From Cyanobacteriota bacterium (lineage in GTDB: Bacteria > Cyanobacteriota > Cyanobacteriia > PCC-6307 > Cyanobiaceae), in NCBI GenBank assembly GCA_026389335.1, contig JAPLIB010000015.1:1-64000 (forward strand): a stretch of 64,000 nt of DNA. Direction: 5' to 3'. The translations under genes and the position numbers were made by a program. A model generated the notes under the pieces. That model searched no databases. It was not told where the DNA came from and saw only the letters and a list, made by a program, of their open reading frames with translations. Numbering within the stretch: the stretch's first letter is position 1; every line of letters starts with the position of its first letter. Positions 36,842 to 54,553 of the stretch are shown here, piece by piece.

Positions 36842-36888
<47 letters not shown>

Positions 36889-39792: not shown

Positions 39793-39977
39793 CTCAATGC
39801 CGCCATCGCGACCCTGGCGTTCGGCAGGAACTGGCCGGATGGGGCACAGGCGACGGCCTACAAGACGTGCAACGCCAGGGATTACCTGAACTGAGCCACC
39901 CAGATCACAACAGCTCCTGAGCAACAGCACAAATCAACACCGAGAAGCACAGACAAAGCCAATAAGTCTTACCTTCT

Positions 39978-40574
39978 ATGGGCCAATCTGGCTTAGACTT
40001 TGTGGCAGCCAGATGGCAGCCCGTGGACAACGTCCCCGCAGAAGATTGCCACAGCGGGGAACATCCTCAAGGCGCCGATGCAGTGGAAGAACTGCGTAAC
40101 TCCGCGCCGACAGAAGATGCGGATGGCAAGCCGGTCTGGGGCGACGGCAAGCAGAAGAAGCAGGCCAAAGGCGCTCACCCCCGCTGCAGCCAACCGCCAC
40201 GCCCAACGGCAGAGGCCCCCTTTGCGCCGCGGCCCAGCCGTCAGGAGGTGGAGCGACGCATCGCCGAAGCCCAGCTCTGGATCGCGCAGCGGCTGCCCCT
40301 GATCGAGATTCGGGACAATGCCGCCCGAAATTGGGGGATCACCAATACCAAGACGGTGGGCCGTTACCTCTCGCTGGCCCGCCAGCGGATGGTGGAGGAG
40401 CTCGTGCAGAACCGCCTGGAGCACCAGGCGGCCTACATCGAAGGGCTCTCGGAACTGATCCGTCGCTCGATGGCCGCTGAACAGTTCAATGCAGCCGTCG
40501 GCGCCTACCGGGTGATGGCCGAGGTGACCGGGATGCTGCGGGCTCCGCTCAAGGCACCGGAGCCCCGGCCATGA
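39978..40574 (+). CDS. Putative terminase small subunit
   Basis: 198 residues. The first 75 are low-complexity and may be partly non-coding. The rest holds a helical region SRQEVERRIAEAQLWIAQRL followed by an HTH-like RDNAARNWGITNTKTVGRYL, then helices (RQRMVEELVQNRLEHQAAYI and AAEQFNAAVGAYRVMAEVTG), an arrangement usual for phage small terminases that recognise DNA. Its stop overlaps the large terminase ATG (ATGA), the strongest argument for the call. A later start near 40220 is possible. Confidence 0.68.
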   Translation: MGQSGLDFVAARWQPVDNVPAEDCHSGEHPQGADAVEELRNSAPTEDADGKPVWGDGKQKKQAKGAHPRCSQPPRPTAEAPFAPRPSRQEVERRIAEAQLWIAQRLPLIEIRDNAARNWGITNTKTVGRYLSLARQRMVEELVQNRLEHQAAYIEGLSELIRRSMAAEQFNAAVGAYRVMAEVTGMLRAPLKAPEPRP

Positions 40575-42232
40575 CCGTGAGCCCTTGGCTTGGCACAGCT
40601 TCCGGCCAGCAGCAGGGGTTGCTCACGGCAGCGGGGGATGCCTGGGGCGACTGGGGACTGCTGGGTGTGCGTGATCCCTCCCTGGCTCCTGATGCCTCTT
40701 CCGTTGCCGCGGACAACTTCCGGAGGTTCATCACCGCGGCCTATCCGGGCTACGCCTTTCACACCTGGGCCGAACGCCTGATTGCCCTGCTGCAGCGGGT
40801 GGCCGATGGCGAGCTGCATCGCCTGATCGTCTGCTGCCCACCGCGGCTCGGCAAATCGCTGCTGGTCTCCAAGCTGTTCCCCGCCTACTGGGTGAGTCGC
40901 TACCCACATCGCTTCTGCGCGATCGCCTCCTATTCGGCCGAGCTCGCCTACGCCCACAGCCGTGAGGCGCGCCACTTCTACCGCTCCTGCGGCCACCCCC
41001 TTTCAAAGGACTCAACAGCGGTGGGCAACTGGCTGACGCCCCAGCGCGGCGGCTGCATCGCTGCCGGGGTGCGGGGTCCGTTCACGGGCAAGGGGTATGC
41101 CCTCGGTGTGATCGACGACCCTTACAAGGGCCCGGAGGATGCCGGTAGTGCTGCCCAGCGGCAGAAGCTGATCGAGTGGTTCCAGTCCGTCTGGCTCACC
41201 CGCGCCGAACCCGGGGTGAGCGGCACGGCGGGGGCCGCCCAGGTGGTGGTGCTCACCCGCTGGCATCAGGACGACCTGATCGGCTGGCTGCTGAAGCAGG
41301 AGGCGGGGGAGGCCCCCCAGCACTGGCATGTGCTCAACCTGCCAGCTCTTGCTGAACCACGGGAGACCCGCCTGAGCTTTCCGCCCACCTGCAGCGTGGA
41401 ACCCGAGTGGCGTGAGGCCGGTGTTCCTCTCTGCCCGGAGCGCTTCCCGCTGGCCGAGCTGGAGCAGATCCGCATCCGCGCCGGCCGTTACTGGTGGGAA
41501 GCGCTGTACCAACAACGGCCCTCTCCGGCAGAGGGTCTGCTGTTTCGCCGCGAGTGGTTGCGGACGGCCCCCGTGCGCCAGAGCAGCAGGGAGAGCAGGG
41601 CTTTCGCCCCACTGGTGCTCTCCTGCGACCTGTCCTTCAAGGGCGGCGCCGAGAACGACCCCTGTGGCTTTGTGCTGCTGGGAATGGTGGATCAGAGCCG
41701 GGCGCCGCAACCGCTGCTTCAGGCCCGGGAGAGCGGCCTGCAGCTGCACCCGAGCAGTGCTGCCCTGGCAAACACCGCAGCGGACCCTCGCGGTACGCCG
41801 CCGTTTCTGGTCGAGGTGCTCTGGGCCCAGCGCCATCAGCTCGATCTGCCGGGCACGGTGAACTATCTGCTGCAGAGCCTGGATGCCCTGAAGCGGCAGG
41901 GCCTCAGCCCCGATGCCGTGTTGATCGAAGACGCCGCCAATGGCCCGGCGGTGTGTCAGCTGCTCAGGCGCCAGATCCCCGGGTTGATCGCCATCCGGCC
42001 GCAGGGCAGCAAGGTGAGCCGCGCCCATGCCGTCGCACCTTGGCTTGAGGCGGGGCAGGTGGGCTTCCAGCGCCCCACGGAGGCGCTGCAGAGCGAACTG
42101 GTCAGCTTCCCCACCGGCGCCCATGACGACCTGGTGGATGCCTTCTGCCAGGGCGTGATCTGGCTGCAGCAGCAGCACTGGCGCGGCAGAGGCCGGAGTG
42201 AGCCGCCGCGGCCACTGCTGTTCTCCCACTGA
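40571..42232 (+). CDS. terL: Phage terminase large subunit
   Basis: The 553-residue packaging motor. The ATPase domain has Walker A VCCPPRLGKSLLVSK, the adenine-side FHTWAERLIALLQ, Walker B GVIDDPYKGPEDA and coupling-type motif VVVLTRWHQDDLIG. The RNase-H-like nuclease domain shows LSCDLSFKGGAENDPCGF and the final acidic GAHDDLVDAFCQG. All expected residues are present and length is normal. It is coupled to the small subunit upstream and lies 19 bases before the interrupted sigma-like gene, with the portal-like gene beyond the inner element. Confidence 0.93.
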   Translation: MTVSPWLGTASGQQQGLLTAAGDAWGDWGLLGVRDPSLAPDASSVAADNFRRFITAAYPGYAFHTWAERLIALLQRVADGELHRLIVCCPPRLGKSLLVSKLFPAYWVSRYPHRFCAIASYSAELAYAHSREARHFYRSCGHPLSKDSTAVGNWLTPQRGGCIAAGVRGPFTGKGYALGVIDDPYKGPEDAGSAAQRQKLIEWFQSVWLTRAEPGVSGTAGAAQVVVLTRWHQDDLIGWLLKQEAGEAPQHWHVLNLPALAEPRETRLSFPPTCSVEPEWREAGVPLCPERFPLAELEQIRIRAGRYWWEALYQQRPSPAEGLLFRREWLRTAPVRQSSRESRAFAPLVLSCDLSFKGGAENDPCGFVLLGMVDQSRAPQPLLQARESGLQLHPSSAALANTAADPRGTPPFLVEVLWAQRHQLDLPGTVNYLLQSLDALKRQGLSPDAVLIEDAANGPAVCQLLRRQIPGLIAIRPQGSKVSRAHAVAPWLEAGQVGFQRPTEALQSELVSFPTGAHDDLVDAFCQGVIWLQQQHWRGRGRSEPPRPLLFSH

Positions 42233-42251
42233 TCTTCTGCATCGGAACCCG

Positions 42252-42668
42252 ATGACCCTCCATCGCCCCAGACCAAGCGGACAACTTGCCGGCGCAAACC
42301 CTGCCGTCCGCGCCCCCCGTTCCAGGCAACCGCGTGCCGCCCGCTGCCCCCATGCCGCTGCCGATGCCCTGGTGCTGGAGCATCTGGAGTTCGCCTACCG
42401 GGTGGCCGGGCACTACGCCGCCCGAACACCGATCCCCCGCGACGATCTACAGCAGGAGGCCGCCATCGGCCTGCTGAAGGCAGCCCGCCGCTACGACCCC
42501 GGTCACGGCAGCCCCCGGCCCGGCCACTTCCGCGCCTATGCCCGCCCGTTCATCAACGGCGAGATCCGCGGATGCCTTACAGGCAAAAATGCCATTGCAA
42601 CTTGCACGGCCCCGGGGCCGACGGCTGTAACACTCCTCAACCCATCTCCAACTGAATCACAGCCCTGA
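42252..42668 (+). pseudogene. Sigma-70-like factor, 5' part, interrupted by the inner element
   Basis: Codons 1-105 encode the start of a sigma factor: LEHLEFAYRVAGHYAARTPI, then DDLQQEAAIGLLKAARRYDP (region 2.1-2.2) and FRAYARPFINGEIR (region 2.3-2.4). At 42568 the inner element begins, and the frame continues with unrelated sequence to a stop at 42668, giving a 138-residue truncated product. Joined at the CG dinucleotide to 51766-51979, the frame reads INGEIR-HYLRDKGFPISIP and ends after 176 residues. The intact protein would have regions 2 and 3 but little of region 4. It lies directly after terL, a position fitting control of the structural genes. Confidence 0.85.
42547..42588 (+). other. 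Left attachment site of the inner element
   Basis: Host-side sequence GGCGAGATC, then the shared CG at 42567-42568, then element sequence CGGATGCC. Boundary defined by restoration of the sigma reading frame when joined to the right site. Confidence 0.8.
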
Positions 42669-43752
42669 TCCGCCCCAGGTTGGAGGCCACCACCATCCCC
42701 GCCGAAGTCTGTCCACGCACCTCCCCAGCCAGCGCATGGATCAGATCTGCCAGTGGGCCCCCTGCATTGCAGATCGCAGCAAACAACCCAGCCAAAGCCT
42801 GCGCCTGTCCCCTCGCTGCCTGCGCTGCTTGAACGTCCACCAGGGCCGCATCGGCAGCCTCAAGGATTGCGGCGGTTCTATGCCGTGATGCCAGTGCCAG
42901 GGCTTTTACCTCTAGGCGTAGTTGACGGCGAATCTCAGCTCTAATGGCCAGCAGCTCAGACAGGTTGCTATTTGCCTCTTGCAGTAACTCCCCAAAACCA
43001 GGCAGGCATCCATCAGGGGTGTAGGTGGTGATCGTGGCGGCCCGAGCAATCCCAGCAGCCTCTTCGATTTGGCCTGCATCCCATCCCTTACGGCTGGCCA
43101 GTCCCCATAGATCCCTTTGCGCTACGGGGTCACCAGCTCCCGCCAATACCTGCGCCGCTGCCAATGGAATCTCCCCATTGCATGCACGGGTGAACAACCC
43201 CTGATCCAGCCGCAGGAGGGGGGCCGCATCACGAATCAAGCAGCTATGGCGGGTGATGCCGAACTCCTCAAGATCCGAAGTCCTGGCGCCTGTATCCCTG
43301 AGCCATTTGGCTGTGTCGAGCGGCGTCGCTGTGTTTTCTGCGATGTTTTGCAGGGCAGCCAGAGACCGGGCCGCAGTCGCATCAGGGGCATCAAGCAGCA
43401 TCACCGCCACATGCGTCACCCGATCCCTTTTGGCCAGTTCCAAGCGGTGGTGGCCATCACAGAGATAGATCAAGCCATCAGCAGAGTTCAGCCAACAGCT
43501 CAACACCTTGGCCAGTGCGGGGTTGTACCTCTGGCAATGCCTCAGCCGGTTAGTCGTTCCCCCCTGCCCGATAGCTGCAACCCTGAATTGAAAGACTTCA
43601 GGGCGAACCTGGATCTGATCAACCGGCACCATCCGCACTGGGCCGCCACCTAGGCCATGGGCTTCGAGTTGCTGGAGGATTTGCGCGATCCCGTTGTTGA
43701 GGATCTCCCTGGCAGGGTCTGCTGGTTCCAGATCTTGAAGAACCCAGTTCAC
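42637..43752 (-). CDS. ParB-like nuclease-fold protein
   Basis: 371 residues, GTG start overlapping the stop of the HTH gene upstream (GTGA). The N-terminal part has MVPVDQIQVRPEVFQFR and, after a loop, IYLCDGHHRLELAKRDRVTH, the ParB/sulfiredoxin-fold motif (D-G-x-H-R-x-x-A). The middle is helical like a ParB HTH region (SDLEEFGITRHSCLIRDA), and the C-terminus is a long helical segment (EIRRQLRLEVKALALASRHR). Such proteins occur beside phage packaging and capsid genes. The gene ends about 70 bases inside the left boundary of the element. DNA binding is expected; partitioning is not demonstrated. Confidence 0.75.
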   Translation of the reverse strand: MNWVLQDLEPADPAREILNNGIAQILQQLEAHGLGGGPVRMVPVDQIQVRPEVFQFRVAAIGQGGTTNRLRHCQRYNPALAKVLSCWLNSADGLIYLCDGHHRLELAKRDRVTHVAVMLLDAPDATAARSLAALQNIAENTATPLDTAKWLRDTGARTSDLEEFGITRHSCLIRDAAPLLRLDQGLFTRACNGEIPLAAAQVLAGAGDPVAQRDLWGLASRKGWDAGQIEEAAGIARAATITTYTPDGCLPGFGELLQEANSNLSELLAIRAEIRRQLRLEVKALALASRHRTAAILEAADAALVDVQAAQAARGQAQALAGLFAAICNAGGPLADLIHALAGEVRGQTSAGMVVASNLGRIRAVIQLEMG

Positions 43753-44222
43753 AACCAGCCGTATTCACGCTCAAACTCAGGGCTGCGCGTGTGCTCCAGG
43801 GGAAGCAAATCAAACACCAGCGGCTCGGCGGCAAAGAACACCTCTTGCACCACTGCAGGGGTGAGCACCACCTTCAGGTCCTCATCGATCAATGCTTCAT
43901 TGACAGCAGCGGTGATGGATGCCCACGCCGCCGTGTGCTCTGGGGTGCCGATGTGTGGGTGCTCCGCAATCCGTCGTTGGAGTCGTGCCTCCTGTAGCGC
44001 TGCTTCCACCTCTGCTGGGTTGGCCTTGGACCCCATCCATGCGGGGCTGTCAGTCCTGGTCCTGGTGATCCTGAGCCATCGATCCCTCAACCCCTCAGCT
44101 TCGACGCACAAGCCATTTGGGCCATCAACCGCCTTTAGCTCACCCCCGCGAATCTTGCGGTACAGGCTGTTTCTGGCACAGCCAATGATTGCCGCACCAT
44201 CAGCAATACTCACTAACGCCAT
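43749..44222 (-). CDS. HTH protein, possible small-terminase-like DNA-binding protein
   Basis: 157 residues starting MALVSIADGAAIIGCARNS, an N-terminal winged/MerR-like HTH (LYRKIRGGELKAVDGPNG) of the kind found in excisionases and Nu1-type small terminases. The remainder is helical (ANPAEVEAALQEARLQRRIA) and ends EFEREYGWL. It is coupled to the ParB-like gene. In phages a protein of this build upstream of packaging genes usually marks packaging-site DNA, which would suit a satellite redirecting packaging, but no direct evidence is visible. Confidence 0.65.
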   Translation of the reverse strand: MALVSIADGAAIIGCARNSLYRKIRGGELKAVDGPNGLCVEAEGLRDRWLRITRTRTDSPAWMGSKANPAEVEAALQEARLQRRIAEHPHIGTPEHTAAWASITAAVNEALIDEDLKVVLTPAVVQEVFFAAEPLVFDLLPLEHTRSPEFEREYGWL

Positions 44223-44417
44223 TAAGTTGTAACTGCCCCTGGTTACAGGCTACCCACCCCAAATGCTGCAGGGGTAGGGGTTTCTATGGCCACTAAGTAA
44301 TAGCCAAGGGGAGAGATTGCGTTGTAACTTATTTTTGGCGCTGACTCTACGGATTATCTGAGGTTTTCGTGGACCCTCGCTAACACTCACAGGAAGGACC
44401 CGTTGGCTATTGCTTGC

Positions 44418-44639
44418 TCACTCAATCAGCACGCCTTCGATAACACTATCTTGCAGCTCTAGATCTTGCTGATAACCGCGATGGCGGATGACGTGAACGC
44501 ACATTGCAAAGACACCAGGGTTGATGCAGTTGGCCTGGATGCCTAGTAGCTCTGGGAACTTGAGAGCCCAGCCCTCGAATTGATTCAGCTCTCCAACGGT
44601 GAGGCGATGTTGTCTGATTAGGTGATGGACTGGGAGCAT
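44418..44639 (-). CDS. Small hypothetical protein
   Basis: 73 residues from MLPVHHLIRQHRLTVGELNQ. It contains a single helix-rich stretch and FAMCVHVIRHRGYQQDLELQ. No family recognised and no clear ribosome site. It sits between the HTH gene and the capsid gene on the same strand, a position where small head-completion or decoration genes occur. About 195 bases downstream (44223-44417) hold nothing recognisable. Confidence 0.38.
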   Translation of the reverse strand: MLPVHHLIRQHRLTVGELNQFEGWALKFPELLGIQANCINPGVFAMCVHVIRHRGYQQDLELQDSVIEGVLIE

Positions 44640-44730
44640 GGTGGATTGAAGAAAAGAAAGGCGGCGCACACCCCTGCACGCCGCAAACCACAACCACAGA
44701 TGGAAACTGCCTCTTACAGGCTACCTAGAT

Positions 44731-46326
44731 CTATGCGACCAAAGCGTCTTTCATTACCGCGAACGATTCAGGGTGACGCACTGCAATATCGATTGTCTGC
44801 ATGGCCCGCAGCTCTAGGTTGCCAGCACTAAAGCCACTACCAAACGGATTCACCAATACATCCGTGGCGCCCCACATACCGACCAGCAAATCACTCCAGT
44901 TGCCATAGATGACAGCCGAGCATGTACCACTAGCAGAGCCTTTGGTGAGGTTGCTGGGGATTTGATTGCTGATAACAAAACGACGACCCCAGACCGATCC
45001 AGGAGTGCCAGCACCAGGGCCGTAGAAGTATTCCCCAGAGCCTGAGGTGGTGAGCTTCATCAGCTTGGCTTCGACCTTGGCATTGCTGAGATAACCAGCC
45101 GATGCAGAATCTGCATTATCGATGGCCACCTCTTTCTTCAGATCAGCGAGATGATCGAAGGTGATCGATGCCCCGTTAGTGCCACCAGCCACGGCATTCA
45201 CGCCTGAGGTGTTGAGCAGTCCAGTGGGTTGGTTGCTGCTTCCTGAGCCGTTGATGGCAGCCAGATCGATTGCAGTAGCCAGTTGGGTCACCATGTCTTG
45301 GCGGATCAAGTCCTCCAGTTGAGGGGTGGACTGCAACGACATCAAGCGGGTCCAGCTGGACAGGGCACCAACGGTCTTAGGCCGGAGGGACACAAGATCA
45401 AACGTGCCATTTGATTCGGTAACAGCAGACCCTTCAGCCACCCAATAGGTGCTGGTCAAGCCAGTGCGGCGAGGGATGTCAACGTTGCCCACCAGGCCGG
45501 GCAGCATTGTGGCGCCGAGTTCTGCAACTGCCAGGCGATTGCGCAGGGCATCGATGAACATTTCACCGTGAAGCTCAGTCCCGACCAAATTCCCTGCAGC
45601 GTTAGCAGTGCTGGTGATGTACGGGGTGCGAACGCTGAGGTTTTCAGGCATGAAGAAACCACGAGCTTCGCGGCCCATCTGTTGCTCCAGAGCCCGGCTG
45701 CATTCACGTTCAAACCCTGCCTGGCTCCAATCACCAGTTGCAGCGGCTTTGACGGCGCGGATCAAGCTGTAGCGCTTATGGTCTGCAGGAGTGAAGTCCA
45801 GATCGCCAGAGCCCGCGATTGGTTGTTGTTTTGCGTATGTCATTGAAGGTGTTGCAGGTTGAGAAAGTGAACGGCCGATGCCCACATTTGGGTCTGCCGC
45901 GATAGAGACGAGAGAGATTTCCAATGGGGTCCAGCTAGTGGCCACATAAACTTCGCCTTGGCGTTGCAGCTCGTCGATTTGATAACCAACGGATACATTT
46001 CGGATCACGCCGTTTTCGACATCAGCGCGACGTTGCTGTGCTTCAGGAGATGCCCCCCAACGCACGACTGCGCGACCTTTACTGCTGCTTATTTGGGCGC
46101 TTTCGACAACCCCCAGCAGTTGGTTAGGGTCGTGATTCCAGAGCAACGGGGCGCCATCATTCAGGCGTGATAGATCCACAGCGCCAGCAGCGTGACTGAG
46201 CACTTCATCCCCGAAAGACCGGGCTACGGGTGACTCTGAACTGAAGCTGAGCGTTAAGGTGTCGTCTTTCGTTGCGACGGCCTCCAGGGCCATTGAACGG
46301 CGGTTAATTTCAAGGGCTGTAGCCAT
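44731..46326 (-). CDS. HK97-type prohead protease-major capsid protein fusion
   Basis: A 531-residue fusion. Residues 1-160 form a caudoviral prohead protease: LWNHDPNQLLGVVESAQI carries the histidine and NGVIRNVSVGYQI the catalytic serine. After a linker, residues 230-531 form an HK97-fold capsid: NLSVRTPYITSTANAAGNLV, LVGNVDIPRRTGLTSTYWVA, LIRQDMVTQLATAIDLAAI, NGSGSSNQPTGLLN and IYGNWSDLLVGMWGATDVLV. The ATG at 46326 has a strong GGGAGGG site. Such fusions self-cleave during assembly. Its presence shows the inner element encodes a capsid unrelated to that of the outer element. Confidence 0.93.
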   Translation of the reverse strand: MATALEINRRSMALEAVATKDDTLTLSFSSESPVARSFGDEVLSHAAGAVDLSRLNDGAPLLWNHDPNQLLGVVESAQISSSKGRAVVRWGASPEAQQRRADVENGVIRNVSVGYQIDELQRQGEVYVATSWTPLEISLVSIAADPNVGIGRSLSQPATPSMTYAKQQPIAGSGDLDFTPADHKRYSLIRAVKAAATGDWSQAGFERECSRALEQQMGREARGFFMPENLSVRTPYITSTANAAGNLVGTELHGEMFIDALRNRLAVAELGATMLPGLVGNVDIPRRTGLTSTYWVAEGSAVTESNGTFDLVSLRPKTVGALSSWTRLMSLQSTPQLEDLIRQDMVTQLATAIDLAAINGSGSSNQPTGLLNTSGVNAVAGGTNGASITFDHLADLKKEVAIDNADSASAGYLSNAKVEAKLMKLTTSGSGEYFYGPGAGTPGSVWGRRFVISNQIPSNLTKGSASGTCSAVIYGNWSDLLVGMWGATDVLVNPFGSGFSAGNLELRAMQTIDIAVRHPESFAVMKDALVA

Positions 46327-46387
46327 AAGCCCTCCCGCTTTGTTTTGATGGTTGCATGCCAAAGAATGCAAGACTTGCCTCTCTAGG

Positions 46388-46549
46388 CTATTCAGACTTT
46401 TTGGCGTTCTTTTCAATGGCGGCTTGAATCAATCGCTCTAGGCGCTTTGCTTGAGGAGATGCAAAGTCATCTAAGGGTGATGGCCAGGAAGGGCGATCAT
46501 CATCAGGTTGATGTAATGCCTCTGTGCGATTCAAAAACGGGCGGAACAT
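46388..46549 (-). CDS. Small hypothetical protein upstream of the capsid gene
   Basis: 53 residues beginning MFRPFLNRTEALHQPDDDRP and ending with a basic helix (KRLERLIQAAIEKNAKKSE). No family recognised. It is on the capsid strand, about 60 bases before that start, and may be cotranscribed. Small proteins here are common in phage head modules. Confidence 0.45.
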   Translation of the reverse strand: MFRPFLNRTEALHQPDDDRPSWPSPLDDFASPQAKRLERLIQAAIEKNAKKSE

Positions 46550-46615
46550 GGCCTGAGTGCTATTAATACAACAGGCTAGCAATGGCTAGGATGGCCTCTT
46601 TTGCTCATCCTGCAT

Positions 46616-46960
46616 TTAGGCTTCTCCGTATGTTTCCCATTCTCCAATGCCATTGAAAGAGTGGTCAATCAAGTGGCGAAGTTCGAATCGATATGGATTA
46701 ATCGTCCCAATGATTGTTGCATCAGCCAATTCTCTCAAGCCCTCATCCCCTCTCTGAAAGAAGATGCACCACCCACAATCACGAGCCGCCTCTACAAGTA
46801 AATGGTGGTGCTTTTCATCTTCTTCCAGTAAGCCCTCTGTTGGGCTTCCTTCAATATGACGTTGCAGATTGTCTGCATGCCAGCGGATGTAGTTAACTGC
46901 TTGGTCAATATCTATCGCGGGGCCTGGTCTCGCTGGGCGAGGCAAGTGAGAGGTCGGCAT
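46616..46960 (-). CDS. Hypothetical protein, about 114 residues
   Basis: Starts MPTSHLPRPARPGPAIDIDQ and continues AVNYIRWHADNLQRHIEGSP, then EEDEKHHHLLVEAARDCGW. Acidic and helical, with a His-rich patch. No family recognised. Codon use matches the element, and it is in line with the other minus-strand genes. An overlapping plus-strand frame (46856-47062) with a hydrophobic C-terminus is less convincing. Confidence 0.5.
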   Translation of the reverse strand: MPTSHLPRPARPGPAIDIDQAVNYIRWHADNLQRHIEGSPTEGLLEEDEKHHHLLVEAARDCGWCIFFQRGDEGLRELADATIIGTINPYRFELRHLIDHSFNGIGEWETYGEA

Positions 46961-47047
46961 GCTGCGAGCAGGTATGAGCTGGTAGGTGCATCAACCATGG
47001 CTGCACTGTTGACAGCGGGAGGGCTATTCAGCTGGTTTGCGGCAGTG

Positions 47048-47248
47048 CTATTGAGCCCCTAGCTCCAGGATGTGGGCGCATAGGTTGCTCATGCTCCTGC
47101 CCTCATACCCCGAGCGTTCCAGCAGGCGCTGGTGGGTGGCCCAGGACATGGTGAGCGTGACCCGGACGGGTTTACGCATGGCGAGTTCTGCGGCAGATGC
47201 AGCAGCAGACATTGCAGGGGACACGGCCCCCGAGGAGAATGGAGTCAT
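47048..47248 (-). CDS. Ribbon-helix-helix (CopG-like) regulator
   Basis: 66 residues from MTPFSSGAVSPAMSAAASAA. The C-terminal half KPVRVTLTMSWATHQRLLER, then SGYEGRSMSNLCAHILE, matches the strand-helix-helix fold of CopG/Arc repressors. The N-terminal half is Ala/Ser-rich. The frame is open to 47323, but the ATG at 47248 is a better start. Probably an autoregulated repressor of element genes; the target is unknown. Confidence 0.6.
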   Translation of the reverse strand: MTPFSSGAVSPAMSAAASAAELAMRKPVRVTLTMSWATHQRLLERSGYEGRSMSNLCAHILELGAQ

Positions 47249-47367
47249 CAACTCATCGCAAGTGGGTTGGTCACGGGTCAGGCTGTTGAAGCAGCGCTGG
47301 CCCACCACAAATTTAAGGCACATCAGCGACGCAGGGAAGCGGGCTGCAGCGGATTTGCAGCAGACCC

Positions 47368-47472
47368 CTAGACGAGCAGGTTGTGTACACCCACTGTCAC
47401 GGCGCCCAGGATTTCCGGGTCTGAACCCTGGCCGAACCGGATCGGGGGCGAGATGCCGTCAGTGGCCACCAG
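47368..47472 (-). pseudogene. UmuD C-terminal remnant
   Basis: The minus-strand frame ends ISPPIRFGQGSDPEILGAVT and VGVHNLL before a stop, matching the C-terminal end of UmuD-type S24 peptidases (PPI-x-x-G-x-G-x-x-x-E-I-x-G-x-V-T-x-x-V). The catalytic middle of the protein is not found next to it. The matching N-terminal part lies 360 bases away on the same strand. Confidence 0.5.
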
Positions 47473-47610
47473 CGACACCCTGGGCGGCCTCCAGTGGCAA
47501 TTGGCGGATGGGGCGGCTACAGACTTGACAGGGGCATCAAGAGATATGAATGAGCACCGTAATCTCACCCAGGCACGTGCTATAAAAAACTGATTAGATT
47601 TTCATTTGAT

Positions 47611-47799
47611 ATGGCCATCTTGAAAGTTCTTCGGCCCAAGCAAGGTTTAAGTGGTCGCCGTAAATTTAGTTTCGAAAGCGCTGGCTTTACCTTGGTTGAG
47701 CTTCTTGTTGTAATCGCAATTATCCAAGTTGCTATTGGTATGGCAGTACCCTCTATCTGCTATCATAGTGGTAGGAATGGTCGGATCTGTCAGCGATGA
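47611..47799 (+). pseudogene. Type IV pilin-like N-terminal fragment
   Basis: 62 residues. After a basic leader comes the prepilin signature GFTLVELLVVIAIIQVAIGM, with the peptidase-cleaved glycine and the Glu at mature position 5. After about 30 further residues the frame stops, far short of a pilin. It is AT-rich and lies, on the opposite strand, between the two umuD remnants, so it may have arrived with the insertion or rearrangement that destroyed umuD. It might also be a short membrane peptide expressed as such. Confidence 0.5.
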
Positions 47800-47833
47800 T
47801 AATTTTGGCCGCTAGGAAGGCATTAGAAGGCAC

Positions 47834-47992
47834 CTAATCAGGCCAGCATTCGAAAACGGTGATTTGGCCGGTGCTCATTGGGGAAGGCACAAACTCGCGG
47901 CTCAGGTCGATCCCGGTCTCGATGTAGTCATCGGCGGGGCTCGGGAACTTGCTGCGGGTCACACCAGGAAGGCGGACCCTTGAGGGTAGCAC
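47834..47992 (-). pseudogene. UmuD N-terminal remnant
   Basis: From a GTG at 47992 the frame reads VLPSRVRLPGVTRSKFPSPA, then DDYIETGIDLSREFVPSP. This is the N-terminal arm of UmuD, where FPSPADDYIE-x-x-IDL is the conserved segment. The frame then leaves the family and ends. With the C-terminal piece at 47368-47472 it marks a broken umuD gene. It begins eight bases after the AAA ATPase gene on the same strand. Confidence 0.55.
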
Positions 47993-47999
47993 AAAAGAA

Positions 48000-49535
48000 C
48001 TATTCCTTTCGTTGCCAATCAGCGGGGATGTCCCAAGCAGAGCCAACAGCCACCGGGCAAGGGGGGACCATTAACTGGATTTGCCCCTGCGGGGGTGCAT
48101 CCGGATCCTCCGCATCATCCGCATCAGCAACGACAAGGAGGAACCCTTTGCCATTTGGTTGGCGTTTGATTTGCCCACGTGTCTCCAGTGCTTTGGCTTG
48201 CTCTCGAATCGTTCGTGCATCAACGCCCAGCACCTCTGCCGCTTGTTTCACCTCAACGGGTCCATCGGCTTGGATCAGCTCTAGGAGCTTCCCTTGGCCT
48301 TCGGTTTGGCGTTTTGCATCCTTCTCTGCAGCCTGTTCCTTTTCGTAGTCGCTGTAATCCCCATGCAGCTCCCACTGCATCTGAGCATTAGAAGCCACCA
48401 GCAGGTCTAAAGGCACTGAGAAACGACCTTCGGCAAACAAGCGCCTTCGCGGGTCATCTTTCAGTGCAACCGGGTAACCATCCTTCTGTTTGGTCAGATG
48501 GTGAAGGCTGAGCACCTGGGATGGAACACCACCGATGGCACTGCTGCCCCGTATGGCTGCAACTCCAACCGATCCATCGCGGATGATACTTTTGGGTGCA
48601 TGGTGAACGACCAGACAAGTGCCGCCAGCGCCTGTAACCACCTCCCCTAGCTGATACAGCAGATCAGAGGCTTCAGCGCTGTTTTCATCAATGCCCAGGC
48701 TTCTGCTGCAGGAGCGCAAGGAATCCACAATCACCAGCATTCCAGGGTTTGCTTGGCATTGAGTGCGGATCATGCGGAACCCTTCGCTATCCAGCAGCAA
48801 TGGCCTATCCAAGGTGAAGAGCTTGTGCATGAATGCAGGCACCTGGCCGGTGGTTGATAAACCGCTTTTGACCAGGTAGTTGCGCCAGAGACTGCGGGGC
48901 ATGTCGGTGCCTATCAACAGCGTTGGGGGGATTGGTGGTAATTGATGCCCAAGGCAGGAATCACCGCGCACCATCGCCGCAAGTAGCCCCAGATAGAACC
49001 GTGTCTTGCTTGCTTTAGGGGCGGCCACCAGCATGGTCAAATCACCAGCAGGGATTAGATCCGGCAACAACCAAGCGGTCTCAAGGTCTGGGAGTGCATC
49101 GCCTGGCCCGTAACCATCAGCCGATCCGTTGTCGCTATTGGTGGCTGCCTTGAGTGCTGCAGTAATCGCCGCAGCCTCGACACCCTTGCATTGACTTCTG
49201 AGCATGGCCCGCAGCTCCCACAGGGGTGCTTCCGGTGAGCTTTCAACCAATGCAACCGCCAGAGCATTTAGATCAAGGATGGTTTGCCTGGCTTTTGTTG
49301 CCTGGTCTTGGGGTGTTTGCGGAGGATGCGGAGGATCCGGATGGGGGGTCGCAGCCCTAAAAACTTTCTCCGCACCATCTCTGGTTTTGGCGCCTTGCTG
49401 GTCGAGCTGGTCAAGCGTCACCTTTAGGTGCGCGCCATAGAACCCATCTTTTGCCCTGCTGGGAGAGAACACCGAATCAGGCGGCAACTTCTGCAGGGTG
49501 ATCAAGCGCTCCCAAGCATCTTTTTCGCTCGTCAT
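48000..49535 (-). CDS. RepA-like AAA ATPase with C-terminal winged helix
   Basis: A 511-residue replication-type ATPase. The RecA-like core starts PAGDLTMLVAAPKASKTRFY, where the P-loop lacks the usual glycines but keeps K-T, as in AAA_25/RepA relatives. Other motifs are LLIGTDMPRSLW, GMLVIVDSLRSCSRSLG (Walker B) and GGTCLVVHHAPKS. The C-terminal LIQADGPVEVKQAAEVLGVD is a winged-helix segment. The N-terminal 100 residues have a Pro/His-rich linker. It is the likely replication or helicase-loading protein of the inner element. Its ATG overlaps the stop of a small gene upstream. Confidence 0.82.
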   Translation of the reverse strand: MTSEKDAWERLITLQKLPPDSVFSPSRAKDGFYGAHLKVTLDQLDQQGAKTRDGAEKVFRAATPHPDPPHPPQTPQDQATKARQTILDLNALAVALVESSPEAPLWELRAMLRSQCKGVEAAAITAALKAATNSDNGSADGYGPGDALPDLETAWLLPDLIPAGDLTMLVAAPKASKTRFYLGLLAAMVRGDSCLGHQLPPIPPTLLIGTDMPRSLWRNYLVKSGLSTTGQVPAFMHKLFTLDRPLLLDSEGFRMIRTQCQANPGMLVIVDSLRSCSRSLGIDENSAEASDLLYQLGEVVTGAGGTCLVVHHAPKSIIRDGSVGVAAIRGSSAIGGVPSQVLSLHHLTKQKDGYPVALKDDPRRRLFAEGRFSVPLDLLVASNAQMQWELHGDYSDYEKEQAAEKDAKRQTEGQGKLLELIQADGPVEVKQAAEVLGVDARTIREQAKALETRGQIKRQPNGKGFLLVVADADDAEDPDAPPQGQIQLMVPPCPVAVGSAWDIPADWQRKE

Positions 49536-49717
49536 GAGAACGGCCTCCAGATGTTCACCTGTTGCTTCAGGGTCAAACCTTGACGTTTGGCTAGGCGATT
49601 GGTGGCTGTCACCAAGGCCAGGTCGATCAGGATTGTCTGCGCTTGGCCTGACGGTATTGGGAGTTCAGCGGGTACAGCACGGCGCCGCACCAGGCTTTCC
49701 CTGGGTTGGTTTTTCAT
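49532..49717 (-). CDS. Small hypothetical protein coupled to the ATPase gene
   Basis: 61 residues, MKNQPRESLVRRRAVPAELP and onward, basic, with a short helix near the end. Its stop overlaps the ATG of the ATPase gene (ATGA), which supports its being translated. No family recognised; a small replication accessory protein is possible. Confidence 0.5.
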   Translation of the reverse strand: MKNQPRESLVRRRAVPAELPIPSGQAQTILIDLALVTATNRLAKRQGLTLKQQVNIWRPFS

Positions 49718-49745
49718 CTAGTATTCAATAGAAGTTTTTGCTTTT

Positions 49746-49773
49746 GCCGTCCTTGGCCGGGCGGCTTTTTTTT
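49746..49773 (+). terminator. Rho-independent terminator on the plus strand
   Basis: GCCGTCC and GGGCGGC form a 7-bp stem (one T-G pair) with loop TTGGCC, followed by eight T residues. It acts on plus-strand transcripts, although all the flanking genes are on the minus strand. Confidence 0.7.
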
Positions 49774-49776
49774 GAC

Positions 49777-49944
49777 TCAGGTGGTCGCAAGCTGTTGCAA
49801 GCCAGCACGAATTGCAGCTCGGGCAATCGCTGAGCGTGTGGCGTTGTGAACTTGAGCCGCTTGGTCTAGCTGCAGGGCTAGTTCTGGGGTGAGACGTAGC
49901 TCAACGCGTGCGGTTGGCCGGGTCTCGACAATCGGGGCAGGCAT
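49777..49944 (-). CDS. Ribbon-helix-helix protein next to the recombinase
   Basis: 55 residues from MPAPIVETRPTARVELRLTP, continuing ELALQLDQAAQVHNATRSAI, a clear Arc/CopG ribbon-helix-helix domain. It lies about 140 bases downstream of the serine recombinase and ahead of the replication genes. It may repress the operon, or act as the recombination directionality factor that large serine recombinases need for excision. The latter is a guess from position and size. Confidence 0.65.
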   Translation of the reverse strand: MPAPIVETRPTARVELRLTPELALQLDQAAQVHNATRSAIARAAIRAGLQQLATT

Positions 49945-50082
49945 GTTCTCCGTACCTGGGTACGGGGTCAACCCTCATCGAACTGCCAGCAACTGCCAAC
50001 GTCCTTTCGCCACCATTTTTAGCGCGTTTTTGCCCAGCCCAGTGATACCAGTGGGTAGACCCTTTTTAGCTAGTTAGCTATT

Positions 50083-51702
50083 TTATTTTTTCCTTATCTG
50101 ATTCGCGGCATTGATAAGCGTAGGCTCCGGTTCTGGCAGCATGACCCCCATGACGAACACCTGTTCTTTCGGGTCAGTAGTCATCCATTTGGCAAAGTGA
50201 AACAATCCCAGGTCTTCTTCTTTGCACCCTGGATCCGCTCCCTCCTCGCTTGGCCTGACCAGTTCCATCACGGCCTCATCGCCAATCGAAATAATCAGAT
50301 CAGATCCATCCGCATCAAGAGACCAGGCCAGGGGTTGCCATCGCTTCGAGACGATCAACCGCACCCGTCTGCGCTCCACCACCCCCTCGATCTCGGCATC
50401 ACGGCAGAGCTTGAGCAGCTCTTCATCCGTCAGAGCCTTCAATCCTTCCCAGCTCCCCAGTTGATCCACCAATGTCTGGAGGGCCACCTTCTCGCTCACT
50501 GAAACGGCCTTGTAGCTCTGCAGTGCCTGGGTGATCTCAGTCTCAAGCTTTTTTACCAGTGGCTCCACCTCTGCCATCCCGGTGGATTTGAGGCTGGCGA
50601 TCTTTGCCCTGATCTCCTGGATCTCAGGTGACTCGACCACCATTTGGGAGCTGCTTGCAACTTCAGCAGCAAGGCGATGGGCAATCCCCCGGCCAATCCA
50701 AAACAACCCGCGCAAAAGGTCGTGGCGGATCTCGCTAAGGGGGGCGCTGCCGAGCTTGTAACGAACTCCGCATGTTTCGTAGGGACAGTGGATCGCCCCC
50801 GTGCTGGGTGTCATGCGGTGGCCGCAGCTACTGCACCTAAATCGGCTTGATGCCCAACTCGGTTTGTAGACGCCACGGCTTTGCCCCCCAGGAGTTCGTT
50901 TGCTGATCTCCAAAGCTCGTAGGACTTCTGCCTGCTTGGCCCGGCTGATCAATGGCGGATGCGTGTCTGGATCAATCCCCAACCACCCTGGTTTTGGCGC
51001 AGCCCTTTTGCCGTTTTCTTTGCTGATCGGGCGAGGGTGCACCCTTCCTGTATCGCCTACCAATGCTGGGTTTACTAGCCAGTTCTTGAGACCACGGGCA
51101 GACATCCGCACGCCATGGGTCTTATGCAGCCAACCGCATGTCCCACGCGCATCAGCCGTTGCGATGAACCGTTCAAGAATGCCCAATGCGATGGCAACAG
51201 TTTTGGCATCTGCCAAGGCCAGGAATAGATCGCCACGCTCACGCTTGAACCCAAACGGCGCACGACCTTGAGCAGCCTTCAAGACTTCCCGGCGATGGCG
51301 GATTCCATGGCTGCTGCGTTCCCTGATCCGTTCCACCTCGGCCTGGGCAAAGACGCCGATCATCCGAAAGGCAGCCCGCCCCATCACCGTGGTCGTATCG
51401 ACAGCATCATCTAGAGCCCGCAGGCGTGGGCCGTTATCACGCCCGAAGAATTCGGCCAGATAGCAGTTGTAGCTAGCAGATCTGGTTAGGCGATCTAGGC
51501 GCGTGATTACCAGCTCAGTGGCCTGCCCGTCTTCAAGCATCCCCAGCGCCTTGTCTAGTGATGGCCTGCGATCAACCGATCCACTGATCAGGTCAGTCAG
51601 CACCTTGTCGCAGCCTGCATCCACTAACCGCTTCACCTGCTGCTCCAGCGCGATCCCTTCGGCCTGCTCCCTGGTGCTCAGCCTTGCGTAACCGATCCGC
51701 AT
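50083..51702 (-). CDS. Large serine recombinase (integrase/excisionase of the inner element)
   Basis: 539 residues starting MRIGYARLSTREQ, with the catalytic serine at position 9. The resolvase domain continues with LVITRLDRLTRSASYN and AAFRMIGVFAQAEVERIRER. The recombinase domain has APFGFKRERGDL and LKNWLVNPALVGDTGR. A zinc ribbon (CSSCGHRM and CPYETCGV) and a coiled-coil stretch follow (EIQEIRAKIASLKSTGMAEV). This is the architecture of phage-type large serine integrases. It starts 62 bases inside the right boundary. The frame is open to 51738, but the family start is at 51702. Confidence 0.95.
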   Translation of the reverse strand: MRIGYARLSTREQAEGIALEQQVKRLVDAGCDKVLTDLISGSVDRRPSLDKALGMLEDGQATELVITRLDRLTRSASYNCYLAEFFGRDNGPRLRALDDAVDTTTVMGRAAFRMIGVFAQAEVERIRERSSHGIRHRREVLKAAQGRAPFGFKRERGDLFLALADAKTVAIALGILERFIATADARGTCGWLHKTHGVRMSARGLKNWLVNPALVGDTGRVHPRPISKENGKRAAPKPGWLGIDPDTHPPLISRAKQAEVLRALEISKRTPGGQSRGVYKPSWASSRFRCSSCGHRMTPSTGAIHCPYETCGVRYKLGSAPLSEIRHDLLRGLFWIGRGIAHRLAAEVASSSQMVVESPEIQEIRAKIASLKSTGMAEVEPLVKKLETEITQALQSYKAVSVSEKVALQTLVDQLGSWEGLKALTDEELLKLCRDAEIEGVVERRRVRLIVSKRWQPLAWSLDADGSDLIISIGDEAVMELVRPSEEGADPGCKEEDLGLFHFAKWMTTDPKEQVFVMGVMLPEPEPTLINAANQIRKK

Positions 51703-51743
51703 TGCGCTGCCATGACTGCCTTTCCACCAGCTTGCCACAAGAT

Positions 51744-51785
51744 CCTTTTGCTTGGAAGGTAGTCGACACTACCTGCGCGACAAGG
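51744..51785 (+). other. Right attachment site of the inner element
   Basis: Element-side sequence GGAAGGTAGT, then the shared CG at 51764-51765, then ACACTACCTGCG, where the sigma reading frame resumes with H-Y-L-R-D. Confidence 0.8.
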
Positions 51786-51979
51786 GATTCCCGATCAGCA
51801 TTCCCGGCCGCTGGCGGGAACTTCATGCCCGCGGCCGGAAGCTGCTGGCCAGCGGACTGGCACCCGAGGAGGTGCCTGCCCGGCTGGGGATCAGCCTGGA
51901 TCGCTGGGCCGAGATCGTGCGGGCCTGCGCCGTGCGGGTGGTGGCCTGGCCTGTGGAAGGAGTGGAACCGGAACCCTGA
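51752..51979 (+). pseudogene. Sigma-70-like factor, 3' part
   Basis: From 51766 the frame encodes HYLRDKGFPISIPGRW and RELHARGRKLLASGLAPEEV, then PARLGISLDRWAEIVRACAV. HYLRD completes the region 2.4 motif GEIRHYLRD; the following I-x-I-P-x-x-x-R-E-L is the start of region 3, and the remainder resembles a short region 3-4-like HTH. A TTG at 51752 would permit separate translation from element sequence, but without regions 2.1-2.3 the product could not act as a sigma factor. It ends seven bases before the convergent PIN gene. Confidence 0.83.
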
Positions 51980-51985
51980 GGGGGT

Positions 51986-52567
51986 TCAGTCGGAGTCGAT
52001 CTGAAACTCCATGCAACGGCTGGCGAAGGTGGGAGCCTGACGGCTGAGGATCTGCAGCAGGGCCTGGGCCGTGCGGGCCGGGTTGCGCTGCCGCGCCGCG
52101 ATGGTTTCCAGGCAACCGTGCATCGCGCCGGGGTCGAGATCCAGCAGGTTGCAGAGGAACTGATCGGGCGTCACGGCCTCGATCCCGAGGGGCTCCAGAA
52201 CCTCGGCCGGGAAGTGCCGCACGTTGAGGGTGACGATCACCTCGGCCTTGGCTGCGATCGCTGCCGCCAGCACGTGGCGATCACCGGGATCGCAGCCCAG
52301 CTGATCAGCGAGACCCGGTGGCGGCTCCACCAGGGCCTCGGGAAAGGCCCGTTCCATCGCGGCGCAGAACCGACTGGCCTTCTCTTGGGTACTGCGCGCA
52401 TCAGCCAGAAGGTTGCGGACCGTGTCCTCCAGGATCTGCGGCGACCAGTGGACCCGGTACAGGTGCTCATGGGCTATTTCCAGCAGCAGATCTCTCAGCT
52501 CATAGGGATAGAGAACGCAGCTGTCGAGAAGAACGGGGGAGACGGCAGGTTCAAGCCAGAGGCTCAC
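51986..52567 (-). CDS. PIN-domain toxin (VapC-like)
   Basis: A probable Mg-dependent ribonuclease of 193 residues. Acidic residues of the PIN site are visible in VLLDSCVLYPYELRDLLLEI (D and E), in DPGDRHVLAAAIAAKAEVIV (D-x-x-H) and in VTLNVRHFP. The ATG overlaps the stop of the HTH partner (ATGA), the usual antitoxin-first arrangement. The pair is antisense to the phage operon, between the sigma-like and portal-like genes. It would stabilise the element or act in phage defence. Confidence 0.85.
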   Translation of the reverse strand: MSLWLEPAVSPVLLDSCVLYPYELRDLLLEIAHEHLYRVHWSPQILEDTVRNLLADARSTQEKASRFCAAMERAFPEALVEPPPGLADQLGCDPGDRHVLAAAIAAKAEVIVTLNVRHFPAEVLEPLGIEAVTPDQFLCNLLDLDPGAMHGCLETIAARQRNPARTAQALLQILSRQAPTFASRCMEFQIDSD

Positions 52568-53004
52568 ACCGCCTCCACCTGCATCTCCTGCCCCAGCTCG
52601 CTGAGCTCATCCAGGGCCCCGCGGCGGGCCTGCCTGCGCGCATCACGCAGCTGCAGTACATCGTGAATACGCAGGCGCCGATGACTGCCGACCATCACAA
52701 CCGGAACGGCCTTGTCGTCGATCAGTCGGTAGAGGTAGGGCCGCGAGACGTTGAGGATCTGGGCAGCCTGCTGTGTGGTGAGCAGGGCGTCATGGGGCAG
52801 CACCGTGACCGCCTCACCGCGCTTGAGGTTGTCGAGCAGGCCCCGCATCAGGCCATAGAGCGGCGCCGGCACTAGGTGCTCCTCGCCCCGGGGACCGACC
52901 AGGCGTGCCTCGCCGGCCTGAAACAGGGCGAGCAGTTCATCCAGCTGCTCCGGCAGCATGGAATCGGGCGTGATGGTGCCTGGCACCGCGGGTGTCGCGA
53001 CCAT
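52564..53004 (-). CDS. Excisionase-type HTH antitoxin
   Basis: 146 residues from MVATPAVPGTITPDSMLPEQ, with a good ribosome site (AAGGAGG) ahead; the open frame to 53118 is not used. The C-terminal half has the excisionase/MerR-type HTH LLTTQQAAQILNVSRPYLYR, then LIDDKAVPVVMVGSHRRLRI. Proteins of this build pair with PIN toxins and bind their own promoter. Its start is 66 bases from the candidate late promoter of the divergent portal-like gene. Confidence 0.85.
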   Translation of the reverse strand: MVATPAVPGTITPDSMLPEQLDELLALFQAGEARLVGPRGEEHLVPAPLYGLMRGLLDNLKRGEAVTVLPHDALLTTQQAAQILNVSRPYLYRLIDDKAVPVVMVGSHRRLRIHDVLQLRDARRQARRGALDELSELGQEMQVEAV

Positions 53005-53070
53005 CGAAACCTCCTTCCTGTCGTTGCTTAACCGTAATAGGCGTAACCGGCGCTCCGGGGCAAGGGGGCT

Positions 53071-53081
53071 TCGGCAATAGG
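53071..53081 (+). promoter_or_regulatory. TCGGCAATAGG motif, copy 1
   Basis: Exact 11-base motif ahead of the portal-like gene, followed by GGGGAAAG and then GCACAGCCC, which is shared with copy 2. Candidate late promoter or operator. No -35-like element is conserved upstream. Confidence 0.6.
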
Positions 53082-53191
53082 GGGAAAGCGGCACAGCCCT
53101 GAGCCAGGCCACCGCCACTGCTGTTCATCCCGCGGCGCTGCTGCTGCAGGAGGCCCCTGAACTCCAGCGCCGCCGCGGCCAGCTGCAACTG

Positions 53192-54553
53192 GTGGCCGAC
53201 TGCTGGAACCTGCTGGAGGGGCGGCGCGAGCACTACCTGCCGCGGGGGGAGCGCGAACCGGAGGCGGCCTATCGGCGCCGGGTGGAGGCAGCCCTGCCGT
53301 CGGGGTTCTTCCGCGATGCGCTGCGCACCTTCGCGGGAATGCTGTCGCGGGAGAACTGGACGGCCCTGCCCTCTGGGCTTGAGCTGGTGCTCAGCGATGT
53401 GGACGGACGCGGCACGGACCTGGGTGCCTTTCTGGCCGCAGCCGACGTACTGGTGCTGCGCGACGGCGGTTGCCTGTTGCTGGTGCTGCCGCCCGATCAT
53501 CTCTGGCCTTCTGAAGGAGACCGGCAACAGGCCCTGCGCCGGGGGGATCGGCTGTCGCTGCCCCGCCTGCAGCTTATCCCCCGCACGGACCTGCTCAACT
53601 GGCAGCTGCCCCACTCCCATGGCCTGCCGGTGCGGATCACCTGGCGGGAACTGAGGCCGGGCAGCGAGCCGCCGCCGATCGATGCCATCGGGCTCTGGCC
53701 CGAGCAGCCCTGCCCCTGGCTGTACCGCAGCCTGCAGCTCAAACCGCAGGGCGTTGCCCTCAGCACCGAAACGCTCGTAGCCGATCCACAGAGCACCTCG
53801 GGCTGGCAGGTGGAGCAGCTGGAGCAGCGGCTCTATCAGGGCCTCCAGCAACTGCCGGGCCTCTGGTATTCCAGCGACGGTGCAGGCTTCGGCGAGGGCG
53901 AACTGCCGCACCTGGGGCTGGCGCATCAATACCTGAACCAGTTCCGCTGTCAGAGCGACTACCAGGAGCTGCTCAGCCGCTGCGCCCTGCCGGTGGGTGT
54001 GCGCACCGGTGTGGTGGGTGCCGTGGGGCAGCCACCAGGCAATGAACCAGTGGTGCTGGGACCCAACACGGTGATGGACCTGCCGGAAGGCGCCAGCTTC
54101 CAGTTCGCCGAGGTGCAGGCGCGCTCCCTGGCGGAGCACCGGGCCTGGCTGCAGGTGCTGGACGCGGCGATGCGCCGCGATGCGCTGATCCCCAGCAGCA
54201 GCGGTGGCGTGGCCCGGACGGCAACCGAGATTTCGCTGGCCGCCAGCCAGTCGTACGCCCTGCTGCAGAGCCAGGCGATCCAGAAGGCGTCGCTGTTCAG
54301 CAGCCTGCTGGTGCACTGGTGCGCGATCACCGGCGAACCGCTCAGCCCGCAGGCGGCGTTGCAGGTGTCGGTGAATCCGCTGACGCCGCCGGTGGCGCCG
54401 CGGCCGACAGTGAGCGAATGGCTGTTGCTGGAGGAGAAGGGCGTGGTGAGCCGCGATGAGCTGCGGCAACTGCTGGAGCTGGCCACGCCGGTGCAGGTGA
54501 GCCAGAGCGTCACCAGCGGCGCTGAGCTGCTGCCCGCCACCGATTCGCCATGA
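53192..54553 (+). CDS. Portal-like phage protein (DUF4055 type)
   Basis: At least 453 residues. The frame is open from 53081, and family-like sequence (HPAALLLQEAPELQRRR) precedes the first standard start, a GTG at 53192, so translation may begin upstream at an unusual codon. REHYLPRGEREPEAAYRRRV followed by FRDALRTFAGMLSRENW resembles the start of DUF4055 proteins, which replace the portal in some phages. LPEGASFQFAEVQARSLAEH and RTATEISLAASQSYALLQS near the end agree. Its stop overlaps the next ATG. It is the first structural gene right of the inner element. Confidence 0.72.
   Translation: MADCWNLLEGRREHYLPRGEREPEAAYRRRVEAALPSGFFRDALRTFAGMLSRENWTALPSGLELVLSDVDGRGTDLGAFLAAADVLVLRDGGCLLLVLPPDHLWPSEGDRQQALRRGDRLSLPRLQLIPRTDLLNWQLPHSHGLPVRITWRELRPGSEPPPIDAIGLWPEQPCPWLYRSLQLKPQGVALSTETLVADPQSTSGWQVEQLEQRLYQGLQQLPGLWYSSDGAGFGEGELPHLGLAHQYLNQFRCQSDYQELLSRCALPVGVRTGVVGAVGQPPGNEPVVLGPNTVMDLPEGASFQFAEVQARSLAEHRAWLQVLDAAMRRDALIPSSSGGVARTATEISLAASQSYALLQSQAIQKASLFSSLLVHWCAITGEPLSPQAALQVSVNPLTPPVAPRPTVSEWLLLEEKGVVSRDELRQLLELATPVQVSQSVTSGAELLPATDSP

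Follow-up and report, generated by a model that had tools for sequence, protein, structure and literature searches.

The window analysed here, a stretch of 64,000 nucleotides from contig JAPLIB010000015.1 of a Cyanobiaceae genome (part of contig C126 of a draft assembly of 4.05 Mb in 171 contigs), carries a small picocyanobacterial prophage in which the gene of a phage-type sigma factor is split by an inserted element of 9,197 bases. With a probability of roughly 0.75, the element was read as a 9.2 kb integrative, capsid-carrying phage satellite that was inserted into the prophage sigma gene by its own XisF-like recombinase. The insertion, its exact empty sites, its gene content and its relatedness are directly visible in the sequences compared; the satellite lifestyle, the activity of the recombinase, the reversibility of the insertion and any effect on late transcription are what we infer.

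Interruption of the sigma factor gene

The split gene, the insert and its two ends are located as follows.

42252–42568, plus strand: sigma gene 5' part, codons 1–105 and the first two bases of codon 106 (joined frame; Sigma70_r2 match; SigF/SigB-type models)
42567–42569: left joint attL, with CG common to both ends, or GC should the core lie at the palindrome centre (end comparison, palindrome)
42569–51765: inserted element of 9,197 bases, G+C about 0.52–0.60 against 0.65–0.69 alongside
51764–51766: right joint attR, again with the common CG; its third base is A, against C or T in the six closest relatives (end comparison, relatives' codons)
51766–51979, plus strand: sigma gene 3' part, from the third base of codon 106 through codon 176 to the stop (joined frame; intact same-locus homologue in sister genome G344)

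Joining position 42568 to 51766, which removes the 9,197 bases, yielded an uninterrupted open reading frame (ORF) of 176 codons that ends at 51979. This frame, restored without a break by exact removal of the insert, had been proposed in the original prediction and was recovered, as were the CGA codon at the joint of the joined frame, the two bases shared by the ends (C and G at 42567–42568 and 51764–51765, nothing beyond) and the position of the gene in a phage packaging operon directly after terL. The motif GEIRHYLRD, described there as canonical, is so except at one position, with Arg at codon 106 in 6 of 60 aligned stretches and Thr in 42. SigF/SigB/SigG-type models (NCBIfam) matched the restored protein below their cut-offs and over residues 35–161 at most, and region 4 was covered by none of the Pfam and NCBIfam matches listed. 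The named relatives of the gene belonged mostly to Synechococcus and Cyanobium; unsplit copies at roughly 60% identity occur in the cultured Cyanobium usitatum Tous and Cyanobium sp. FACHB-13342.

Empty sites and intact homologues

An empty site was found at the same chromosomal locus of G344 (L142), at about 96% nucleotide identity. Window positions 35858–42569 aligned with 9355–16067 of L142 at 96.2% identity and 51764–53651 with 16065–17952 at 97.2%, the two blocks meeting with a 3-base overlap, so that the joint showed neither gain nor loss of a base. Since the blocks meet exactly at the joint, the insertion goes beyond chance. Gene order in G344 is that of the window, with flanking host genes, a Fic gene, two small genes, terS, terL, sigma and a PIN/helix-turn-helix (HTH) pair. 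The restored window sigma protein was 94.3% identical to that of G344, where the joint codon is CGC and not CGA. A second empty site occurred in G200, where the alignment crosses the joint gap-free, again without base gain or loss; its sigma gene is intact at 84%, in the order terS-terL-sigma-PIN/HTH-portal of the window. Whole sigma genes of 83–89% identity were also present alongside terS, terL and portal in four IMG/VR contigs (L119–L122). The original prediction would have been weakened by a lack of unsplit homologues or of an empty site in a close relative; both were found.

Sixty distinct aligned sigma stretches cross codon 106 (49 from genomes, 10 from IMG/VR and 1 from a phage; the partial rows L157, L034/L038, L041, L039 and L040/L162 stand outside this count), and none has an internal stop. 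Among the loci compared, the window copy was the only one cut by an insert at codon 106. The insert was not found in the 41 other genomes of the genus searched, where the sole match was one of 449 bases at 66% in G226; it is thus carried by 1 of 42. Partial sigma matches in G023, G155, G049, G048, G194 and G128 were considered as further split copies and rejected; the stretches compared yielded no satellite gene, and the copies look frameshifted, duplicated or truncated.

The ratio of nonsynonymous to synonymous substitution rates (dN/dS) between the window and G344 sigma genes was 0.32 overall, 0.18 for the 5' part and 0.38 for the 3' part, the last raised by compensating indels, against 0.19 for terL; such ratios are unable to date the insertion. 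By this comparison, the window sigma gene shows no apparent pseudogene-like decay.

Ends of the element

When the right end of the insert was joined to its left end, an imperfect palindromic 40-mer (TTTTGC...GCAAAA) with 15 of 20 positions paired was obtained. Three of about 63,960 40-mers in the window have 15 or more pairs, compared with none in 20,000 shuffles. The attP site of a large serine recombinase is expected to be palindromic, and both features of such integration, a short shared core (2 bases) and a palindromic attP (15 of 20), are present here. The centre of the palindrome falls between G and C (42568–42569 in attL), one base off the centre of the shared CG. Codon 106 of the six closest sigma genes, the sole carriers of Arg among the stretches, reads CGC in three and CGT in three, and CGA in none. 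Should GC be the core, attR would therefore read GA. A single C-to-A change would be the simplest account whether the core is CG or GC. The centring of the palindrome slightly favours GC, in which case the insert may be locked in; this argument depends on one base of a draft assembly.

Gene content of the element

The recognised genes of the insert, all on the minus strand save a small pilin-like ORF, are listed below.

42637–43752, minus strand: protein whose residues 37–218 match part of the PHROG portal family phrog_21 (PHROG search)
43749–44222, minus strand: small HTH_17-like protein (profile match below cut-off)
44731–46416, minus strand: prohead protease-major capsid fusion (Pfam, PHROG, tree)
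46388–46582, minus strand: small protein resembling one that adjoins the capsid gene of L084 (by eye)
48000–49535, minus strand: AAA_25 helicase-type protein (Pfam; homology)
49532–49717, minus strand: small protein whose homologue adjoins the AAA_25 gene of L084 (homology)
49777–49971, minus strand: Arc-like repressor (PHROG)
50083–51738, minus strand: large serine recombinase, XisF-like (Resolvase domain in Pfam, phrog_95 integrase in PHROG, NCBIfam)

Among the nine insert genes scanned, no terminase gene and no whole portal gene was recognised. The sole PHROG portal match is partial; it lies in a protein of 371 residues and spans a small part of the profile. Because neither gene was recognised, the insert would depend on a helper phage for packaging. 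Homologues of the 371-residue protein came from Prochlorococcus phages in 17 of 19 matching records, and by eye its product appears ParB-like, with no model match. The pilin-like ORF (47611–47799, plus strand, 62 codons) has a prepilin-type N-terminal motif, which is odd for a satellite; pilin-like matches also occur near the L084 element.

Capsid relatives beside tRNA genes

Relatives of the insert capsid were found in 12 of 201 genomes of the family, the window's own included. Each of the five full-length relatives examined shared its 20 kb stretch with a tRNA gene, tRNA-Pro in four cases and tRNA-Ala in one. Repeats of tRNA-Pro sequence surrounded the capsid gene in 3 of 4 elements searched, at distances of 9,439, 9,335 and 7,108 bases. 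In L084 and L086 the capsid gene has an AAA_25 gene in its neighbourhood (the scan did not extend to the counterpart ORFs in L085 and L088), and the AAA_25 search of viral contigs gave no match. In the capsid tree, the window protein grouped with the five tRNA-near elements at 100/100, apart from phages S-LBS1, S-CBS1 and S-CBS3; phage Mano and L118 were included, and the short rows G174a, G174b and IMGVR_L115 were left out.

We take the tRNA-near elements to be, perhaps, satellites of the tycheposon type. That type integrates at tRNA genes by means of a tyrosine recombinase. The name tycheposon occurs in part of the text of PMC11389934. The insert shares with the tRNA-near elements the capsid-protease clade (five), an AAA_25 gene (two) and a size of 7–9 kb (three). 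It differs from them in having a serine recombinase and a phage gene as its site, whereas they lie beside tRNA genes and two of their three integrases tested gave weak tyrosine-integrase matches. On the strength of the capsid clade, the sizes and the AAA_25 genes, the insert was taken to be a satellite of the tRNA-near kind with another integration module.

The recombinase

A large serine recombinase beside the right joint had been predicted, and is there; in the ORF at 50083–51738 the first GTG lies 27 bases and the methionine of MRIGYARLS 63 bases from the joint. In Pfam it matches the Resolvase domain and not Phage_integrase. The nearest model was XisF, the excision recombinase of the fdxN element (E 7.5e-68, NCBIfam). 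Since its 229.5 bits fall under the equivalog cut-off of 375, the protein was called XisF-like and not XisF. The earlier comparison with the fdxN element accordingly holds for the proximity to this model and fails at its cut-off. Across the phylum, the cut-off of the XisF model was exceeded in 15 of 386 genomes and the model was matched at 1e-40 in 48, against none of 14 control genomes.

Relatives of the window recombinase occurred in 7 of 400 family genomes, the window's included, and no sigma match was found in the six 20 kb stretches around them. The genome-contig and viral-contig searches returned no relatives, and the window contains no tRNA gene. The recombinase tree has several long branches and, in row L188, a wrong ORF, and it was used for no firm inference. 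Two distant serine recombinases from other genomes of the family (L065 9321–11424 and L066 9339–11438) each begin next to a small gene; the two small genes are alike, HIT-type by eye, and are perhaps the integration site.

Proposed course of the insertion

The satellite would have entered codon 106 of the SigF/SigB-type sigma gene, between terL and portal, through its own serine recombinase, with a small picocyanobacterial prophage as the host of the insertion. It would bring its own capsid-protease, AAA_25 protein, Arc-like repressor and small DNA-binding proteins and be packaged through a helper phage. Compared with the two elements with weak tyrosine-integrase matches, its integration module would have been swapped for a serine recombinase that targets a phage gene. 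Integration would split this copy of the sigma gene, and precise excision would restore it.

Alternative explanations

Several findings weigh against the satellite. Its packaging dependence would rest on absent genes, and some small ORFs of the insert lie outside the scan. A single instance of the sigma insertion was seen, and IMG/VR yielded no joined-end string and no further left joint. No bounding repeat was found at L084 (one of the four elements searched), and the integrases of the tRNA-near elements are themselves uncertain, those of L085 and L086 matching Phage_integrase below the cut-off and that of L088 giving no match (three tested). The nearest phage relatives of the insert capsid are of S-LBS1 type (41%), and the outer prophage has a capsid of another Pfam family. 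Because the two capsids differ in this way, the outer prophage may be the address of the satellite and not its packaging helper. That the insert is a decayed prophage of S-LBS1/S-CBS type with few genes left is a distinctly unlikely alternative. It would account for the 39–42% identity of the capsid-protease to S-LBS1, S-CBS1 and S-CBS3, but it has to contend with the 100/100 grouping with tRNA-near elements, an AAA_25 gene and a small gene common to some of these, two exact ends and a size of 9.2 kb like theirs. An assembly artefact or a chance frame would suit a draft genome of 171 contigs and has a negligible chance of being right, as two independent base-exact empty sites (G344, G200) and palindromic ends speak against it.

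A real, though less than even, possibility is that satellite and prophage are both grounded and that the insert has been stuck since the crossover dinucleotide of attR mutated, an account compatible with the satellite. The palindrome centre, which would leave attR as GA, argues for it, as do the relatives' joint codons (CGC in G344) and the lack of a window match to the integrases of two relatives, G062 and L120, although a different integrase could have escaped (that of L120 was itself identified by eye and by a Pfam match that is weak, at E 0.042, and under the cut-off). Yet with a CG core both ends agree and nothing is broken, CGA could predate the insertion in the target, the deviating base may be an error of the draft contig, and the recombinase, AAA_25 and capsid ORFs are open at full length. 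The original prediction had instead proposed that excision restores the sigma factor and turns on the prophage structural genes; as a programmed switch, this would happen in some cells or under stress, as for the Bacillus skin or the fdxN element. This we consider very unlikely. The exactly excisable structure and restored frame suit it, as do the low divergence of both sigma halves from intact G344 (within the limits on dN/dS given above) and an XisF-like recombinase that sits at the 3' end and faces against the interrupted gene, an arrangement that PMC4874684 gives for 69 of its 70 xis genes of opposite orientation. The developmental claim is not upheld in the face of the unmatched integrases, the decay of the same-locus prophage in G344 and L157 (truncated in both, with sigma partly deleted in L157), five open sigma paralogues in the genome and an excised joint not found in IMG/VR. 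The insert moreover occurs in 1 of 42 genomes of the genus, and nothing found points to control of late genes by this sigma factor, whose region 4 is covered by none of the matches listed. The satellite, which the original prediction had not considered, explains the insert better than a switch. With the outer prophage probably grounded, it is more likely the satellite than a programme of the host that benefits, or used to benefit, from this arrangement. It is improbable that a lineage of satellites with XisF-like recombinases occupies the sigma gene of its helper such that the helper gains this transcription factor only after the satellite leaves, timing the helper programme for the satellite, as an independent invention of the helper-embedded position through another class of recombinase.

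Comparison with known systems

The closest precedent is the enterobacterial helper-embedded phage-inducible chromosomal island (HE-PICI) of Tommasini, Mageeney and Williams (2023). According to sections of that paper (PMC10111431), this satellite sits in a prophage late gene without replacement sequence, its excision, expected when the helper is induced, restores the gene, many of its helpers look truncated, its integrases form a single clade, and the embedded satellite controls the integrity of a prophage gene to its own benefit. Its main text does not contain the words 'serine', 'sigma' or 'cyanobacteri'. The window likewise has a gene split without replacement sequence by a putative satellite, in a prophage that is probably grounded; the split gene lies from terL towards portal, has empty counterparts in relatives and may be a late gene. 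The HE-PICI integrase clade is reportedly of the tyrosine type, unlike the window recombinase with its Resolvase domain. The target, a sigma gene, also differs, as does the orientation; HE-PICIs are co-oriented, whereas the window recombinase, AAA_25 and capsid genes are on the minus strand and sigma on the plus strand. By analogy, the insert is a putative serine-recombinase, oppositely oriented, cyanobacterial variant of a helper-embedded satellite. The literature searched, whose coverage excludes most subscription papers, yielded one report of helper-embedded satellites and no cyanobacterial or serine-recombinase example.

The skin element of Bacillus is a serine-recombinase element in sigK, a host gene, with proven developmental excision. 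The insert resembles it in splitting a sigma gene with a serine-recombinase element and differs from it in that the sigma gene is a phage gene and shows no sign of regulated excision. Heterocyst interruption elements (fdxN/XisF and others) lie mostly in host genes and are excised during heterocyst differentiation, with three in unicellular non-heterocyst genomes, as stated in parts of PMC4874684. As in those elements, the window insert interrupts a gene exactly, carries near its end a recombinase opposite to that gene, and restores the frame when exactly removed; unlike them, it targets a prophage gene and has a recombinase under the XisF cut-off.

If the satellite reading is true, the helper-embedded position was reached outside the known integrase clade, by a picocyanobacterial serine-recombinase element and in a transcription-factor gene. 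The XisF recombinase family, known for rearranging heterocyst genes, would then be tied to phage satellites, which bears on whether interruption elements are virus remnants, a question raised in a passage of PMC4874684. The window and the same-locus empty site in G344 form a clean pair for tests.

The outer prophage

The genes of the surrounding prophage are as follows.

38360–39792, plus strand: two related small genes, also in L120–L122 (homology)
39978–40574, plus strand: probable terS (position before terL; no PHROG match)
40571–42232, plus strand: terL (Pfam, PHROG)
51986–53118, minus strand: PIN-domain protein and excise-family HTH protein, a toxin-antitoxin-like cargo pair (profiles; present in G344, G200 and L119)
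53192–54553, plus strand: portal (DUF4055, phrog_145; Pfam, PHROG)
55701–56555, plus strand: head scaffolding protein (PHROG)
58188–59102, plus strand: major capsid protein (phrog_212, GP7; Pfam family unlike the satellite's)
61339–61794, plus strand: collagen-like tail-fibre protein (profile match)

The order terS, terL and type III sigma is printed for phage P-SS2 in the relevant part of PMC2784084, where the role of the sigma factor is inferred by its authors, and the annotation of S-CBS2 also places sigma after terL. A sigma gene adjoining terL was thus already known. The window module has the same order of terS (by position), terL and a group-3-type sigma gene, the last below the SigF/SigB cut-offs.

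A fuller relative, G062, encodes a tyrosine integrase, a BRO protein, an AAA_25 protein, an exonuclease-like protein, terminase, sigma, portal and scaffold. No match to the primase or AAA_25 genes of G158 and G062 was found in the window outside the insert; since L120 gave none either, little follows from their absence. The prophage of G344 lacks all sequence between portal residue 167 and the fibre gene. The same late-gene loss, together with a deletion of sigma residues 22–94, is seen in L157, so that late genes are retained only in the window copy of the three copies of the locus compared. An intact, inducible outer phage was considered and judged unlikely, given the unmatched integrases. 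L157 (CALPNT020000228.1) is filed under Bifidobacterium breve and matches the cyanobacterial locus at 86–99%; it is probably misbinned.

Five more terS-terL-sigma-portal sets with open sigma frames were found in the window genome (contigs C92, C1, C91, C66 and C104; L045–L049), and this number of related small prophages within a single cell invites study of recombination among them. In G148, 15 sigma matches were counted, among which host sigma genes may be present.

The PIN protein is 98% identical in G200, against 83% for terL, which suggests that the PIN/HTH pair may have been recently transferred or exchanged. Downstream of the capsid gene (58188–62067), there are small genes of unknown type and the collagen-like fibre gene, and none of the genes scanned there was recognised as coding for a tail tube or tape measure protein. 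Two minus-strand ORFs of low G+C and without Pfam match lie between the scaffold and capsid genes (56559–58075), and in L120 another insertion, unlike this one, occupies a gap close by; for this reason, these gaps look like cargo sites.

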